Assembly (NCBI GenBank): GCA_002070505.1
Contig: MWDJ01000018.1
Coordinates: 1 to 61,146 of the forward strand
Length of the DNA: 61,146 bases
Source: Bacteroidetes bacterium ADurb.Bin145
GTDB taxonomy: Bacteria; Bacteroidota; Bacteroidia; Bacteroidales; VadinHA17
Direction of reading: 5' to 3'
The stretch's first letter is position 1. The number at the start of each line of letters is the position of its first letter. Made by a program: the position numbers and the translations under genes. Below the pieces are notes generated by a model. That model saw nothing but the letters and a program-made list of their open reading frames with translations, searched no databases and was not told the origin of the DNA. Below, in pieces: positions 24,018-32,237 of the stretch.

Positions 24018-24443
24018 CTATTCATTTGAAAGGTTATCAACTGATTCCAGAGAAGCATCATCTATCATTGCCAGTTCTGCAGGAATTATCCTTGTATTGT
24101 TGTATGGCAGTGATAAATTACCGATCATAATACCCAGAAATACTGCTGCAGCCAGGGATAAGGTCATCAGAGCCGGCCTTAGGATCCTGGTAAATATGTC
24201 CACGGATCTGTACCCTGAGATTTCCCTGTTTCCGATCTTTGCCATCACTCTCGTTATAAGGAATGGATCGGGTTCCAGTTCTTTTTCAGAACCAATTACC
24301 CTGTCGGCGAGGACCTGAATCCTGTACATCTGATTACATGCCTCACATTCCTTAATGTGAGACTCAAGCTGAGTTTTCATATCTGAGGGAAGGATCCCTT
24401 CCAGATATGCATCCAAATTTTCCTGACATAACTTACAATTCAT
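24018..24443 (-). CDS. Zinc-finger anti-sigma factor
   Basis: A 141-residue single-pass protein beginning MNCKLCQENLDAYLEG. The ZAS motif HIKECEAC (H-x3-C-x2-C) is typical of zinc-binding anti-sigma factors. One transmembrane helix (ALMTLSLAAAVFLGIMIG) follows, with a short periplasmic tail. The internal Met at 24443 is chosen over 24470, because the longer version adds a non-conserved stretch and would nearly reach the sigma stop codon. It lies 30 bp after the ECF sigma gene and should bind that factor. Confidence 0.88.
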   Translation of the reverse strand: MNCKLCQENLDAYLEGILPSDMKTQLESHIKECEACNQMYRIQVLADRVIGSEKELEPDPFLITRVMAKIGNREISGYRSVDIFTRILRPALMTLSLAAAVFLGIMIGNLSLPYNNTRIIPAELAMIDDASLESVDNLSNE

Positions 24444-24473
24444 TTTAATGGTTTTTATGGTTAGAAACAAAAC

Positions 24474-25070
24474 TTATTTTTTTCCTACGCTGTTAATCAT
24501 TTTTTTACTATCTGATGATAATTTTTCACGGAGGTTCTTTTTTGCCCTCTGTATAAGCGCTTCAACAGCACCTTCTGAAATGTTCATGATCTCTGCTATC
24601 TCTTTCTGGGGAAGATCATCATACTTGCTGAGGACTATAGCTTTCCTTTGACTTTCAGGGAGGCTGTCAAGCGCTTTACCAAGCCAGTCGGAATGCTCCT
24701 TCCTGATCAGGATCTCTTCGGGGTTTTCCGGCGCCTCATATAAAAATATTTCCTCAGGATCTTTCTCTACCCCTGAAATATTTTTAAAGTATTGTAAGAT
24801 TGATTTCTTTTTGCTATGCCTTATCCTGTTCAATGATGCATTAATGGCTATCCTGTAAAGCCAGGTGGAAAATGCTGATTCCCCTTTAAAGGCGGATAGT
24901 GACTGATATGCCTGAATGAAGACCTCCTGGGTTAGATCATCGGCATCATCTTTATAATGAACGAATCCCAGACAGGTACGGAAAACCAAAGGCTGATATT
25001 TTTCCATCAGCAACCGGTACTTTTCTTTTTCTCCCTGTAGGATAGCCCGGATAATCTCTGTATCCGTCAT
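24474..25070 (-). CDS. ECF RNA polymerase sigma factor
   Basis: A 198-residue ECF sigma factor. Region 2 contains DDADDLTQEVFIQAYQSL and FSTWLYRIAINASLNRIR, and region 4 contains LPESQRKAIVLSKYDDLPQ and EIAEIMNISEGAVEALIQRA. It heads an operon with a ZAS anti-sigma factor, a Spy-like protein and an EF-hand-like protein, which points to an envelope or metal stress regulon. It begins 84 bp after the thioredoxin reductase fusion on the same strand, so partial read-through from that operon is possible. Confidence 0.94.
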   Translation of the reverse strand: MTDTEIIRAILQGEKEKYRLLMEKYQPLVFRTCLGFVHYKDDADDLTQEVFIQAYQSLSAFKGESAFSTWLYRIAINASLNRIRHSKKKSILQYFKNISGVEKDPEEIFLYEAPENPEEILIRKEHSDWLGKALDSLPESQRKAIVLSKYDDLPQKEIAEIMNISEGAVEALIQRAKKNLREKLSSDSKKMINSVGKK

Positions 25071-25154: not shown

Positions 25155-26423
25155 TTACTCAAGTTCCTTTGCAATAGCCATTGCTGCAATTGTGCCGTCA
25201 GCAACTGCAGTTGTAATCTGCCTGTACTTCTTGCTAATAACATCACCGACAGCATATACTCCTCGGATATTTGTCCTCATATCCTCGTCAGCTTTAATGA
25301 ATCCCCATTTATCCATTTCCAGCTTTTGTTTGAAAAGGTCAGTATTTGGTTTCATTCCAATGAAAATAAAAACACCGTCACTTTCAAGCGATGATCTTAC
25401 TCCTGTCTTGATATTCTCCGTTATCGTAACTATCCTGTCACCCTCTTTCCTGAATTCTCTGGGCTCATTATCGTACAGGAAGGTCACTTTCGGATTTTTG
25501 AATATTTTTTCCTGAGCCTGCCTGTTTGCTGTGAGCTTATCAAACTGGTGAATTATAGTCACTTTACTTGCAAACCTTGAAATGAATTCAGATTCTTCAA
25601 CGGCTGAATTACCTCCGCCAATCACAAGGACTTCCTTATTATCGTAATATTTTGCATCGCAGGTAGCGCAATATGAAATGCCTTTCCCTCTTAGCTCTTT
25701 CTCACCGGTTGCCCCTGTGTTGTTAGGCGTAGTTCCGGTAGCTATTATGATCCTTTTGGCTTTCAGGGTCTCATATTCATCAATGACAACTTCTTTCTTC
25801 TCCAGATCTATACTTGTTACATCGACTGCGACCTTATAAACAGTGCCGCACAATTTTGTCTGTTCGCTCATATTATGCGACAGCAGATAACCGGGAAGCG
25901 GTTCAATAAAACCCGGATAATTTGAAACCTGGTGAGTATTTGCAACGTTCCCGCCCGGCAAAGCAAGGTCGACAAGTACAGTGTTTATTTTAGACTGGCA
26001 CAGATACAGTCCTGCAGTTAATCCACCAGGTCCGGCACCAAGAATAATAACATCAAATTCTGATACTGATGGCTTAATCCGGGATTTAATATCTCTGACT
26101 CTTTCAGGAGAAATCAATGAATCAAGGTTTTTGATTATTTCGCTTCTTTTAATTCCACCTGTCAGTCTGCTGCCTGTTTCTTTACCATCTTCAAAGAAAA
26201 GCAGTGTAGGGGATGATTTCACTCCGAGAGCTTCGGCAAGATTTCTGTTTCCCTGACGGAATATTTTCAGAAATTTTATGTCATGTCCGTATAATTCCGA
26301 CAAATTCTGAAATTTTGATGCCAGTGCTTCGCAGGGAGGGCATTCCGTGGAATAGAAATCAACGACTACTTTCCCACCTTTCAGGACTTCATTGTCAAAT
26401 TCGGATGCGGTTATCTCTTTCAT
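25155..26423 (-). CDS. Thioredoxin-thioredoxin reductase fusion
   Basis: A fusion of 422 residues from the ATG at 26423. Residues 1-100 are a thioredoxin with active site CPPC (residues 28-31, in VVVDFYSTECPPC). The rest is a flavoprotein reductase with FAD motif GAGPGGL, redox motif CATC (ISYCATCDAKYY) and NADPH motif GGGNSAVEE. It would pass electrons from NADPH to its own thioredoxin. The order thioredoxin-then-reductase is the reverse of the better known mycobacterial fusion. It starts only 10 bp after the radical SAM gene, so it most likely supplies reducing power to that system or to the ArsM-like enzyme. Confidence 0.93.
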   Translation of the reverse strand: MKEITASEFDNEVLKGGKVVVDFYSTECPPCEALASKFQNLSELYGHDIKFLKIFRQGNRNLAEALGVKSSPTLLFFEDGKETGSRLTGGIKRSEIIKNLDSLISPERVRDIKSRIKPSVSEFDVIILGAGPGGLTAGLYLCQSKINTVLVDLALPGGNVANTHQVSNYPGFIEPLPGYLLSHNMSEQTKLCGTVYKVAVDVTSIDLEKKEVVIDEYETLKAKRIIIATGTTPNNTGATGEKELRGKGISYCATCDAKYYDNKEVLVIGGGNSAVEESEFISRFASKVTIIHQFDKLTANRQAQEKIFKNPKVTFLYDNEPREFRKEGDRIVTITENIKTGVRSSLESDGVFIFIGMKPNTDLFKQKLEMDKWGFIKADEDMRTNIRGVYAVGDVISKKYRQITTAVADGTIAAMAIAKELE

Positions 26424-26433
26424 TTTATTGTTA

Positions 26434-27762
26434 TTATATTGATCTGAAATACTGTGAAAAACCAAGTTCCATTAACTCCTTTACAGGCCGGCAGTCAGGA
26501 GAACAAATATTCCCGGTACGGTTTTTAGCTACCGAACCGCAACCTCCTCCGCAGGCTAGCTGAACGGAGCAATCCCTGCATTCAGCAATCGAAGTTACGT
26601 CCCTTGATTCCCAGTTATCTATAATTTCTTCTTTCCTTGTAACTGACGGGTAGAAAGTTCCGAGGGATTCATCGGTTTTTCCGACTGTTGCTGTACATGA
26701 GTAGATATTACCTGTATAATCAAATGCCCATTCAGTTTTGCACGCCGGACAGGAGTCAAAAAGAGGCCCGGGGAGTTCCCCATTCTCTTCAAGGTATTTT
26801 GAAACTGAGTAGGCAGGTTTATGAAAATCAAGGATATGGGGATGAATTTTTATCATCTCATAGATCTTCTCATAAAGGGATATCCTGTCAAAAAGCTTAT
26901 CAGGTGATGACTGACAATGGTGCAGCTCGTAATTCCTTCCCAGCTGTGTTTTAAAAAGAGGACTGGCAGTCCATCCTTTTTCCATTGCTAAACGGGAAAG
27001 ATCTGCAAGGTTATCGATGTTTTTTTTATCAACTACCATACGAAGATTGATATTGATCCCTTTTTCGAGACTTTTATCAATGCCTTTTACTATTTTTTCA
27101 AATGTTCCGCCTCCGCCTTTCAGAAAACGCCTGTTATTATGAACTGATTCGGTTCCGTCAAGAGTGACCTGGATCTCTCTTATATCTCCTTTCTTCAATA
27201 AAGGAATATATTCTTCAAGAAAATAACCGTTTGTCACGAAGCAGAGAGACAGACCAGCTTCATTTGATTTCTGAATGATATATCCGATTATATCTTTCTG
27301 CACCGGAGTGTTAAGCAGTGGCTCTCCTCCGAAGATTGTTATGTATTTTTTGCGGGCTGCAAATTCCTTATTTACATAATCGAAAAAGGCATCAACGACT
27401 TCTCTGCTTAGCTTATTTGAAGGATGATCATACTGATCCTGATAGCAATAATGGCAGGCAAAATTACAGCTGTAGTTTGTAACGAAGAAAATCTGGATTT
27501 CATCTTTATCGCGGGAATCGAGGAAATCAAGATACTTACGGCGGTATTCCTTTGATTCCTCAGCCTGGTTGATCAGGTATCCTTTATCAATCAGATCGTT
27601 TTTGAACTCATTATCGATTATATCTTTTCCTTCCCTGGCAGCCCTTATCTTTTCTGCATCCTCAGGTGTCAGTATGTCGGCGTTGCCTGAGAGCAGATTC
27701 ACAATAAAGTAATTCTCTGAATCCCTGATTCCGGAAGTTATATTATATTTTGAAAATATCAT
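26434..27762 (-). CDS. Radical SAM/SPASM peptide maturase
   Basis: A 442-residue radical SAM enzyme. The first 85 residues resemble the recognition-like N-terminal part of RiPP maturases (ADILTPEDAEKIRAA, DLIDKGYLI). The SAM cluster motif is CNFACHYCYQ, with Cys99, Cys103 and Cys106, followed by FGGEPLLN. The C-terminal SPASM region has about ten cysteines, including SCPAC, YSCTA, ECRDCSVQLACGGGC and CSPDC, enough for two auxiliary [4Fe-4S] clusters. A 32-residue Cys-Cys peptide is encoded 79 bp upstream and the thioredoxin fusion 10 bp downstream. I infer modification of that peptide. An anaerobic sulfatase-maturase role is less likely because no sulfatase is nearby. Confidence 0.9.
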   Translation of the reverse strand: MIFSKYNITSGIRDSENYFIVNLLSGNADILTPEDAEKIRAAREGKDIIDNEFKNDLIDKGYLINQAEESKEYRRKYLDFLDSRDKDEIQIFFVTNYSCNFACHYCYQDQYDHPSNKLSREVVDAFFDYVNKEFAARKKYITIFGGEPLLNTPVQKDIIGYIIQKSNEAGLSLCFVTNGYFLEEYIPLLKKGDIREIQVTLDGTESVHNNRRFLKGGGGTFEKIVKGIDKSLEKGININLRMVVDKKNIDNLADLSRLAMEKGWTASPLFKTQLGRNYELHHCQSSPDKLFDRISLYEKIYEMIKIHPHILDFHKPAYSVSKYLEENGELPGPLFDSCPACKTEWAFDYTGNIYSCTATVGKTDESLGTFYPSVTRKEEIIDNWESRDVTSIAECRDCSVQLACGGGCGSVAKNRTGNICSPDCRPVKELMELGFSQYFRSI

Positions 27763-27841
27763 TTTTCGGTACTGTCCACAATGAATCTTTTAAGGCTGCC
27801 ATGGAAAGATAACGATACATTGATCAGCTGTGATCAGTCTG

Positions 27842-27940
27842 TTAATCGTGACAGCCTGCAACAGTTTTGGAGATCTTTGCGCAGCACTGTGCTACTTTGG
27901 CCTTTAACTGGTTCGCTTTGTTTCTGATAAGACTTTTCAT
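27842..27940 (-). CDS. Candidate RiPP precursor: 32-residue Cys-Cys peptide
   Basis: A short ORF between the ArsM-like and radical SAM genes, found by translating the gap. It encodes 32 residues: a basic, helical N-terminal half (Lys/Asn/Gln/Leu-rich, residues 1-17) and a C-terminal core QCCAKISKTVAGCHD with Cys19, Cys20 and Cys30. It starts 12 bp after the methyltransferase stop and ends 79 bp before the maturase start, on the same strand, which is the usual place for a precursor. The leader/core split, small size and vicinal cysteines fit a thioether-bearing or metal-binding peptide. No precursor family was recognised. Confidence 0.65.
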   Translation of the reverse strand: MKSLIRNKANQLKAKVAQCCAKISKTVAGCHD

Positions 27941-27952
27941 TTTCTGTATTAT

Positions 27953-28642
27953 TTAATTGGTAAAATTTACTTCATTTTTACTTCCTGACTCATGATCCCC
28001 GCAGTTGCATTTTCCGGAAGGTTTTTGTCCGGCAACTGTCCAGCTGCATACATTAATACTGCCTTTTTCATACGGAGCCGATTCTTCTATAATCCTGACA
28101 GAAGTAAATCCTGCTTTCTCAAGATGCCGGATGTATTCGTCTCTTGTTACAGCACCTGCCCAGCATTCTGCAACAGCAACAGGATCGTTCCTGTATTTGT
28201 CCGGCACGGGGCTGACAGAATAAATATCACTTACAACAAACCTGCCTCCTTTTTTCAAGATCCTGAAGATCTCTTTCCATACGGCAAGCTTATCCGACGA
28301 ATGGTTAATAGTGCAGTTGGAGATCACCAGGTCAGCACAAGAGTCTTCAAGAATGATCTTTTCAAGCGGACTATGGATGAATTTTACGTTTTTCACCCCG
28401 AGTCTTTCCGCTGTGGACCTGGCTTTCAAAAGCATTCCTTCTGAAATATCCACGCCATATACAAATCCATCTTCTCCGACATTCTCAGCCAGTCGGAGCG
28501 CATCGGTTCCCCGGCCGCTGCCAAGATCGACGCATACTTCTCCTTCTGAGGGTTCAGAATAATTTATTGCCCCTCCGCAGGAAAGACAACAGGATGATTC
28601 TGCAAGGGAACTATATCTTTTATCAATTTCTTTAAGATCCAT
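27953..28642 (-). CDS. ArsM-like SAM-dependent methyltransferase
   Basis: A 229-residue class I methyltransferase with SAM motif VDLGSGRGTD. It has the cysteines expected of arsenite methyltransferases: an N-terminal SSCCLSCGG cluster (Cys18, Cys19, Cys22), ISNCTINHSSDK and AECWAGAV. It is shorter than typical ArsM (about 260-280 residues) because the segment between the N-terminal cysteines and the SAM domain is compact. A C-terminal GKCNCGDH tail is unusual. It lies between a DUF6132 gene and the Cys-Cys peptide. It may methylate As(III) or another metalloid using the linked thioredoxin system, or it may act on the peptide. Confidence 0.8.
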   Translation of the reverse strand: MDLKEIDKRYSSLAESSCCLSCGGAINYSEPSEGEVCVDLGSGRGTDALRLAENVGEDGFVYGVDISEGMLLKARSTAERLGVKNVKFIHSPLEKIILEDSCADLVISNCTINHSSDKLAVWKEIFRILKKGGRFVVSDIYSVSPVPDKYRNDPVAVAECWAGAVTRDEYIRHLEKAGFTSVRIIEESAPYEKGSINVCSWTVAGQKPSGKCNCGDHESGSKNEVNFTN

Positions 28643-28690
28643 TTGACTTTTAGCTTTTTACTGAAGATATATTGATTTCTACGTTATAGG

Positions 28691-28912
28691 TCAGGCTGTA
28701 ATTAAAAATCCCAGAAGCGAACCCATGAATACACTTCCGTACGGACTGCTTGTAATGGGGCAGGTCCCTGAGGTGCAGCCAATAAAATAATAATAAAGGA
28801 ACCCAACCAGTCCGCCTGCAATTATACCAATAAAAGGTTTCCAGAAGTACTTTGATCTCAGGAATTCCTTTACTGTTTTCGGTTTTGCTTTCAGGGATGT
28901 ATTTGAATCCAT
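28691..28912 (-). CDS. DUF6132-type small membrane protein
   Basis: A 73-residue protein with a cytoplasmic N-terminus and two membrane helices (GIIAGGLVGFLYYYF and VFMGSLLGFLITA). They are joined by the conserved loop GCTSGTCPITSSPYGS, which carries two cysteines. This matches the DUF6132 family, often found near rhodanese, thioredoxin or arsenic genes. It is the first gene of the ArsM/peptide/radical SAM/thioredoxin operon. A role in moving or binding a thiol-reactive compound at the membrane is only inferred from the Cys loop and context. Confidence 0.75.
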   Translation of the reverse strand: MDSNTSLKAKPKTVKEFLRSKYFWKPFIGIIAGGLVGFLYYYFIGCTSGTCPITSSPYGSVFMGSLLGFLITA

Positions 28913-29034: not shown

Positions 29035-29487
29035 ATGGGAGTGATTTTCAAAAAAGAATTATCAGAGAAAGAGATTGAGGAGCTTTTCAGCAGTGATGAA
29101 AGATGCCTGGAATTTCTTGCGGAAGTAAAATGGGAGCATGGCTTTAAATGCAGGAAATGTGGTAATGATAATTATTGCCCGGGGAAGACACTATATTCCC
29201 GTCGTTGTACCAGGTGCAAATCTGAAGAATCGGCAGCAGCCGGTACAATTTTCCACAACTGTAAGTTTCCCTTACATAAGGCATTTTATATAGCATATAA
29301 TGTCTGCAAGGGGAAAGAGGATATTTCAAGCTATGAACTGGCAAGAAGGTTATCACTCCGGCAGATGACCTGCTGGAATTTCAAGACAAAGATCCATCAG
29401 GCTATTGAGGAAATGGATTCCCTCACAGAGAATGAGAGATCATCCCTTAAAAAAATCTTTACTGACACTCCAGGCCTCCAAGACTAG
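29035..29487 (+). CDS. Stand-alone transposase-type zinc-ribbon protein
   Basis: A 150-residue protein matching the N-terminal zinc-ribbon part of IS1595/ISXO2-type transposases: FLAEVKWEHGFKCRKCGNDN, then RRCTRCKSEESAAAGTIFHN and a helical segment (LHKAFYIAYNVCKGKEDIS, LARRLSLRQMTCWNFK). The DDE nuclease domain is missing, and no remnant follows. The gene is intact, has a good promoter and is divergent from the radical SAM operon. It may be a domesticated DNA-binding protein regulating that operon; this is inference. Its last codons lie in an 8-bp tandem repeat. Confidence 0.75.
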   Translation: MGVIFKKELSEKEIEELFSSDERCLEFLAEVKWEHGFKCRKCGNDNYCPGKTLYSRRCTRCKSEESAAAGTIFHNCKFPLHKAFYIAYNVCKGKEDISSYELARRLSLRQMTCWNFKTKIHQAIEEMDSLTENERSSLKKIFTDTPGLQD

Positions 29488-31720: not shown

Positions 31721-32053
31721 CTAACTGCTCCTGATCATTGTAAGTACCATCTTGAACCTCTCAATTGCCTTAAGGGCATGAGGATTATTTGCAGGCATAA
31801 TGATTGTCTCACCAGCTTCAAGGATATGGGAGACACCATTTATGATTATGTCGGCTTTACCGTCAACTATCTGTACCACAGCGTCAAAAGGCGAGGTGTG
31901 TTCGGTCAGTCCTTCCCCTTTGTCAAATGACATCAGACTGATATTCCCGGTTTCCTTTTTAAGTACATGCTTGCTTACAACAGCCTTTTCAGCATAAGCA
32001 ATAGAATCAGCATAGGAGAATTTCTTCCCCTTTTCAAATTCATTGTTTCCCAT
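31721..32053 (-). CDS. Cupin-domain protein
   Basis: A 110-residue single-cupin protein. The first motif region is SFDKGEGLTEHTSPFDAVVQIVDG and the second is AGETIIMPANNPHALKAIE, keeping potential metal ligands His (EHTSP) and His (PHAL). There is no signal peptide. It starts 8 bp after the BFD-like [2Fe-2S] gene stop, so the two form an operon. Small cupins of this sort may sense or bind metabolites or metals; the substrate is unknown. Confidence 0.85.
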   Translation of the reverse strand: MGNNEFEKGKKFSYADSIAYAEKAVVSKHVLKKETGNISLMSFDKGEGLTEHTSPFDAVVQIVDGKADIIINGVSHILEAGETIIMPANNPHALKAIERFKMVLTMIRSS

Positions 32054-32060
32054 GATTAAG

Positions 32061-32237
32061 TTATTTATTAATTTCCTTAAGGATATCTTCTATATCGGGT
32101 ATGCACCCGCCACACCCGGTTCCGGCTGTGGTTTCATCCTGGACTTCCTCAACTGTTTTCAGTCCTTTATCCTTTATAGCTTTTACAATTTCACTTTTCA
32201 TGATGCCCATGCAGTGACAGATTTCAATATCTTCCAT
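32061..32237 (-). CDS. BFD-like [2Fe-2S]-binding protein
   Basis: A 58-residue protein found by translating the gap. It reads MEDIEICHCMGIMKSEI at the N-terminus and TAGTGCGGCIPDIEDIL near the C-terminus. The CHC...CGGC arrangement is the four-cysteine [2Fe-2S] site of the bacterioferritin-associated ferredoxin/NirB-type Fer2_BFD domain. Such proteins pass electrons or help iron mobilisation. It directly precedes the cupin gene. A shadow frame on the other strand was rejected. Confidence 0.85.
   Translation of the reverse strand: MEDIEICHCMGIMKSEIVKAIKDKGLKTVEEVQDETTAGTGCGGCIPDIEDILKEINK

Follow-up and report, generated by a model that had tools for sequence, protein, structure and literature searches.

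What is a peptide of 32 residues, three of them cysteines, doing between the genes of an arsenite-methyltransferase-like enzyme and of a radical S-adenosylmethionine (SAM) protein? The question is raised by a locus within the 61,146 nucleotides of contig MWDJ01000018.1 of Bacteroidetes bacterium ADurb.Bin145 that were analysed here (hereafter, the window), where five genes follow one another on the reverse strand: a small DUF6132 protein, an ArsM-like methyltransferase, the peptide, a radical SAM/SPASM maturase and a fusion of thioredoxin with thioredoxin reductase (Trx-TrxR). A preliminary description of the locus had treated them as one operon, and the gaps that it gave (48, 12, 79 and 10 bp) were reproduced with the Trx-TrxR start taken at the ATG at position 26423; a longer form with a TTG start reaches 26465. 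The analysis indicates that the peptide and the maturase form a well-supported pair, and that this pair constitutes a new family of precursor and maturase, of a kind already known, accompanied by an accessory set of genes which is not known to have been described.

A conserved three-cysteine peptide

The peptide, MKSLIRNKANQLKAKVAQCCAKISKTVAGCHD, is encoded at positions 27842..27940 of the reverse strand, and both its place between the methyltransferase and the maturase and its cysteines at residues 19, 20 and 30 agree with the preliminary description. Its identification as a precursor rests on profile conservation and on its adjacency to the maturase; the division into a leader, MKSLIRNKANQLKAKV, and a core, AQCCAKISKTVAGCHD, is a probable one. 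The conserved core reads A-[Q/L]-C-C-A-K-x-[S/T]-x4-G-C-H-D-stop, in which nine residues (A, C, C, A, K, G, C, H and D) are identical in 49 of 49 peptides, although the pattern script demanded CC and CHD-stop, so that the invariance of those five positions is in part a product of selection. The profile search, using a profile built from 22 peptides, was free of this demand. The residue preceding the first cysteine is Q in 47 peptides and L in two, and position 24 is likewise occupied by Ser in 47 and by Thr in two. The leader is lysine-rich and varies in length; most leaders begin with MK[S/T]L[I/V], extended in most to MK[S/T]L[I/V]KK, and a single peptide of the 49 (locus L055) has no ATG start.

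Neither NCBIfam nor Pfam holds a family that matches the peptide at E 1. The 32-residue open reading frame (ORF) is nevertheless a real gene: its profile matches extend across genomes, and its invariant residues are encoded by mixed synonymous codons, on which grounds a chance ORF was rejected.

The peptide and its maturase as a pair

The distribution of the two genes was followed in an order sample of 393 genomes, where the maturase was counted at E 1e-60 or better, and in a phylum sample of 395 genomes, where a close maturase was counted at E 1e-100 or better and the peptide at E 1e-5. The maturase occurs in 49 of the 393 order genomes, including that of the window, and the other 48 proteins are 50-69% identical to it. 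The peptide profile finds 49 of the same 393 genomes at E 2e-9 or better; four more, with weak matches (E 7e-4 to 8e-3), were left out of the count. Both genes are present in 48 order genomes, while G263 has a truncated maturase only and G037 the peptide only. In the phylum sample the peptide appears in 6 of 395 genomes, at 1e-12 or better, and these are the same six that carry a close maturase. At E 1e-5 it was found in none of the 17 phylum genomes whose maturases are all paralogues (27-32% identity among the listed matches).

Fifty-six maturase genomes were thus available for a comparison of gene order, consisting of the 49 from the order, two contigs titled 'Bacteroidetes bacterium' (without a blastn match at 1e-20 to the other loci compared) and five phylum genomes beyond the window's own. 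The peptide lies upstream of the maturase in 47 order loci (window included), in both contigs and in all five phylum loci. In the fragmented locus of G384, a separate contig carries the peptide along with the N-terminal part of the maturase, whereas the locus of G263 ends inside the maturase at a contig end, where the presence of the peptide cannot be judged. The 47, two and five loci, together with G384, therefore place the peptide beside the maturase in 55 of 56 genomes, G263 being cut off. The two genes are mostly less than 200 bp apart, with a distance of 426 bp in L036 and of 1075 bp in L066, where a gene intervenes.

Two other arrangements were considered and rejected. The same peptide does not accompany the paralogous maturases, since 10 of the 23 paralogue loci were read for short ATG-started ORFs with two cysteines and none of these had GCHD; in some loci, e.g. 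L089, L090 and L108, the paralogues (27-32% identical) adjoin other short cysteine-containing ORFs. A plasmid-borne system was sought in a plasmid collection, and the seven records recovered at E 1e-20 were 26-30% identical, and hence belong to other families.

The maturase

The maturase (442 aa, positions 26434..27762, reverse strand) was assigned from NCBIfam and Pfam profiles and from an alignment of 47 homologues at least 400 aa long. It matches PF04055 with 80.7 bits, and the radical SAM motif CX3CX2C (C99/C103/C106) is present in 47 of 47 sequences. Equally invariant are the SPASM cysteines C338, C356, C395, C398, C404, C408 and C424, located with a motif that we take to be CX9-15GX4C, CX2CX5CX3C and a final C. 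The best named models are those of the Cys-every-fifth maturase CefB (NF038107; 162.4 bits, cut-off 600), TIGR04463 (149 bits, cut-off 525) and the ranthipeptide maturase PapB (NF047865; 131.9 bits, cut-off 340), and the SCIFF model TIGR03974 gives 95.2 bits (cut-off 425). The divergent clade members L034 and L077 score 180 and 145 bits with CefB, and they too fall short of the cut-off in every family listed for them. The nearest solved chain in a PDB sequence search is 5wgg, presumably the SCIFF maturase CteB.

An anaerobic sulfatase maturase was rejected (TIGR03942, 70.9 bits against a cut-off of 349); the enzyme scores far under every named NCBIfam maturase cut-off, that of the sulfatase maturases included. 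The preliminary description had proposed a ribosomally synthesized and post-translationally modified peptide (RiPP) modified by the adjacent SPASM maturase, and had let this proposal depend on the maturase not being one of the sulfatase maturases and on the conservation of the short ORF and its cysteines beside orthologous maturases. With a conserved peptide next to a SPASM maturase of its own in 55 of 56 genomes, and with neither refuting outcome observed, the proposal is well supported.

The ArsM-like methyltransferase and the question of arsenic

Upstream of the peptide lies a class I SAM methyltransferase of 229 aa (positions 27953..28642, reverse strand), identified by profile, PDB sequence and fold searches. 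With its structural model (mean predicted local distance difference test, pLDDT, of 80.6), ranks 1-13 of the fold search were ArsM/AS3MT proteins, to which the PDB sequence search also points; against PRK11873 (arsenite methyltransferase), however, it reaches 184.4 bits, under the curated cut-off of 263. The earlier label 'ArsM-like' thus holds for sequence and fold, but does not extend to membership in the curated family. Three of its cysteines (Cys22, Cys110 and Cys160), kept in 44 of 44 homologues, align with cysteines of ArsM which we take to be As(III)-binding and which are numbered 72/174/224 in the algal enzyme. Clade-specific His114 and Cys37 are also found in all 44, where the ordinary ArsM pair of the same genome has Leu and Val. 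These ordinary ArsM proteins are 35-36% identical to the operon enzyme and sit in two ArsC-ArsM-Acr3 operons elsewhere in the genome (gene names by reading), on contigs C42 and C62, in both of which TIGR00832 finds Acr3; the operon methyltransferase thus represents a distinct paralogue.

A methyltransferase of this family lies at most 2.2 kb upstream in 49 of the 52 loci with enough flank, and in the remaining three (L073, L075 and L078) it stands further up, behind a TonB-receptor-like gene. Here and below, the labels TonB-receptor-like, Hdr-like, peroxiredoxin-like, MFS-type (major facilitator superfamily), DUF2892, Crp, rhodanese-like and sulfide-quinone-reductase-like were assigned by reading, and DUF302, DUF1847 and DsrE by Pfam.

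An ordinary arsenic operon was rejected, as the ars operons lie elsewhere in the genome and the genome's own ArsC, Acr3 and ArsR, used as queries, matched none of 58 operon neighbourhoods at E 1e-5. Another ArsR-type regulator, recognised by reading, is present in L065 and L069. A subtler involvement of metalloids may also be envisaged, whereby As(III) (or Sb, Se, Te) would be bound by the three peptide thiols and handed to the ArsM-like enzyme, Trx-TrxR acting as reductant, in the service of detoxification or biosynthesis. The fold of the methyltransferase, its complete cysteine triad and the three invariant thiols of the peptide are consistent with such a role, and Acr3 is commoner in the order genomes with the maturase (41 of 49) than in the others (159 of 344; Fisher p 5e-7), a difference which is uncorrected for kinship and genome size. 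On the other side stand the lack of ArsC, Acr3 and ArsR matches in the 58 neighbourhoods, the two ordinary ArsC-ArsM-Acr3 operons of the same genome, and the clade-specific His114 and Cys37 which, together with the lack of a C-terminal insert, suggest another substrate. The metalloid role raised in the preliminary description is thus weakly supported, and we regard it as unlikely.

The thiol reductase and recurring neighbours

The last gene of the operon (positions 25155..26423, reverse strand) encodes the Trx-TrxR fusion of 422 aa, assigned from profiles and alignment, in which an N-terminal thioredoxin domain (CPPC) precedes a thioredoxin reductase (CATC). Both cysteine pairs are present in 40 of 40 aligned sequences. 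A TrxR is found nearby in 45 of the 52 loci with enough flank, and 44 of them have the full-length fusion. At the other end, the DUF6132 protein (73 aa, positions 28691..28912, reverse strand) deserves its label, passing the Pfam cut-off for PF19628 (27.9 against 23.2 bits); its Cys46 and Cys51 are kept in 20 of 20 aligned sequences, and with 23 detections in 56 loci it is an optional member of the operon.

Further genes accompany the operon in part of the 56 loci. DUF302 occurs in 19, always after the maturase and on the same strand; DUF1847 in 12, in nine of which it directly follows the maturase on the same strand. Crp-type regulators are present in 13 loci and DUF2892-like genes in 9. These are raw counts, by which the neighbours are termed recurring and not enriched.

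The accessory genes point to thiol or sulfur redox rather than to metalloids. The peptide may accordingly be pictured as a carrier of persulfide or thiol, from which TrxR/Trx would release or reduce sulfur while the methyltransferase would cap sulfide or thiols. Recurring thioredoxins and the families just listed fit such a response to sulfane sulfur or thiol stress, as do rhodanese-like genes (L036 and L037), sulfide-quinone-reductase-like genes (L047 and L153) and the surroundings of the lone peptide of G037 (below). Yet these neighbours are optional, lineage-dependent and taken as raw counts, DUF302 and DUF1847 are families without assigned function, and of all these extras the window operon has DUF6132 only. 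This role is possible, and a better prospect than the metalloid one, though we would not call it probable. The two are versions of the reading preferred below, with which their probabilities overlap.

Proposed function

Taken together, the evidence leads us to favour, by a modest measure of confidence, a SCIFF-like RiPP that is probably not exported and that has a thiol reductase dedicated to it. The conserved N-terminus of the peptide would serve as a leader bound by the maturase, which would then introduce a thioether, or a comparable bond made by radical chemistry, into the core CCAKx[S/T]x4GCHD, most likely between Cys19 and Ser/Thr24 or between Cys30 and Asp32. The first candidate bond is suggested by analogy, as Cys19 and Ser/Thr24 are five residues apart, like Cys32 and Thr37 in the SCIFF thioether reported in PMC8326336. 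Ser has no gamma carbon, and a SCIFF-type Cys-Thr bond thus cannot form at most position-24 sites. The second candidate, Cys30-His-Asp32, falls within the Cys-Xn-Asp range (n 0-6) accepted by PapB according to PMC9413430.

As judged from their protein families, the fused Trx-TrxR would hold the leftover thiol or thiols reduced, and the substrate of the ArsM-like enzyme would be soft, thiol-bound and either presented by the peptide or derived from it, the candidates being sulfide or sulfane sulfur, a metalloid and a peptide thiol. The modified peptide most likely remains inside the cell, as argued from the protein clusters present in at least 4 of 51 loci, among which reading revealed neither an exporter nor a peptidase. 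A more specific and rather speculative form of this proposal is a RiPP that acts as a peptide-encoded thiol cofactor: the matured CCAKxSx4GCHD peptide, kept in the cell, would carry sulfane sulfur or a metalloid to the ArsM-like enzyme and be recharged by Trx-TrxR, replacing a small-molecule thiol such as glutathione.

Several observations weigh against a SCIFF-like, intracellular RiPP. Pfam called no RiPP recognition element (RRE) in the maturase (no PqqD match), and a two-sequence AlphaFold model, with N-terminal strands and helices in an order that would fit an RRE, is too poor (mean pLDDT 47) to show one. A TrxR is missing nearby in 7 of the 52 loci (L064, L065, L074, L077, L079, L080 and L034). 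The system is patchy, both genes being absent from two other members of the genus (G112 and G294) and from two further members of the family (G212 and G358) in the sample. The genome of G037, 99% complete, has the peptide without the maturase (best match E 2e-7, 29% identity) and without a close methyltransferase (best 38% identity), and G311 holds a second peptide copy on another contig, away from any maturase.

Such solitary copies would suit a short ORF that works unmodified, e.g. as a metal- or thiol-binding peptide, with the maturase directed at another target; the near-perfect co-occurrence of the two genes in the order and phylum samples and their adjacency in 55 of 56 genomes render this improbable. 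The lone GCHD peptide of G037 (L149, 4499-7520) follows a different methyltransferase and is found near DsrE, a Fur-type regulator, peroxiredoxin-like and Hdr-like genes. The second copy of G311 (L150, 6612-6725) lies between DUF2892-like and DUF302 genes, with thioredoxin-like and transposase-like genes nearby (the transposase by reading).

Departure of the product from the cell has also to be weighed, because TonB-receptor-like genes are found within the operon or next to it in two lineages, and because an MFS-type transporter comes directly after it in L062. The receptor-like genes of L073, L075 and L078 (family f39) separate the methyltransferase from the peptide, and those of L074, L077, L079 and L080 (family f33) lie downstream of the maturase. 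A metallophore or signalling RiPP, exported and retaken via TonB-dependent receptors, would account for these receptor and transporter genes. However, such genes occur neither in the window operon nor in most loci, TonB-dependent receptors are common in these bacteria, and neither an exporter nor a leader peptidase recurs among the clusters in at least 4 of 51 loci; an exported product is, in our estimation, a distant contender.

Other features of the window

Downstream of the operon and on the same strand lie genes for an extracytoplasmic function (ECF) sigma factor and a zinc-finger anti-sigma-type protein (24474-25070 and 24018-24470). Divergent from the operon, on the forward strand (29035-29487), is a gene for a small protein in which Pfam finds an IS1595-transposase zinc ribbon. 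Its genome contains no other match; relatives occur close to the operon in 8 loci, that of the window among them, and in L152. The protein is perhaps a domesticated transposase fragment with a regulator role. Further away, a BFD-type [2Fe-2S] protein is encoded beside a cupin (32061-32237 and 31721-32053, reverse strand). No Rfam RNA was found in the window at gathering thresholds.

Comparison with known systems

No NCBIfam model covers the peptide, nor the maturase at cut-off, and a literature search, whose scope excluded preprints and most subscription journals, gave no description of this system among the matches listed. The opinion that the locus is not a described system therefore stands within NCBIfam, Pfam and the literature searched. 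An unnamed precursor-maturase pair, carried by 49 of 393 order genomes and five further genomes of the same phylum, now has a peptide family that can be named and searched.

Each component nonetheless has recognisable relatives. The arsenosugar cluster of ArsM and ArsS is one which, as we understand it, also pairs a radical SAM enzyme with an ArsM-type methyltransferase, yet here NF038099 yields 68 bits against a cut-off of 400, the maturase matches peptide-maturase families, and a precursor peptide is present. ArsM/AS3MT proteins share with the operon enzyme their fold and three As-binding cysteines, but the latter is shorter, falls below the PRK11873 cut-off, and has His114 for Leu and Cys37 for Val. 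Among named maturases, CefB, TIGR04463 and PapB provide the best-scoring profiles (162, 149 and 132 bits), though the window maturase remains far under their cut-offs of 600, 525 and 340.

To our knowledge the role of the SCIFF family is unsolved. It is these ranthipeptides, with their maturases ScfB and CteB, that the present system resembles, in that a small peptide with several cysteines is encoded next to a SPASM maturase of its own; the PDB chain nearest to that maturase is 5wgg. Both the spacing of Cys19 and Ser/Thr24, which equals that of SCIFF Cys32 and Thr37, and a gene set resembling that of a non-antimicrobial peptide, as argued for SCIFF, find their parallel in PMC8326336. In contrast, the peptide described here has three cysteines and not six, its maturase scores 95 bits against the TIGR03974 cut-off of 425, and it is patchily distributed within an order of a Bacteroidetes-type phylum, whereas SCIFF is found in Clostridia. 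The operon moreover adds to the SCIFF plan an ArsM-like methyltransferase and a Trx-TrxR, and these linked enzymes offer a direct handle on the role of cysteine-bearing RiPPs.

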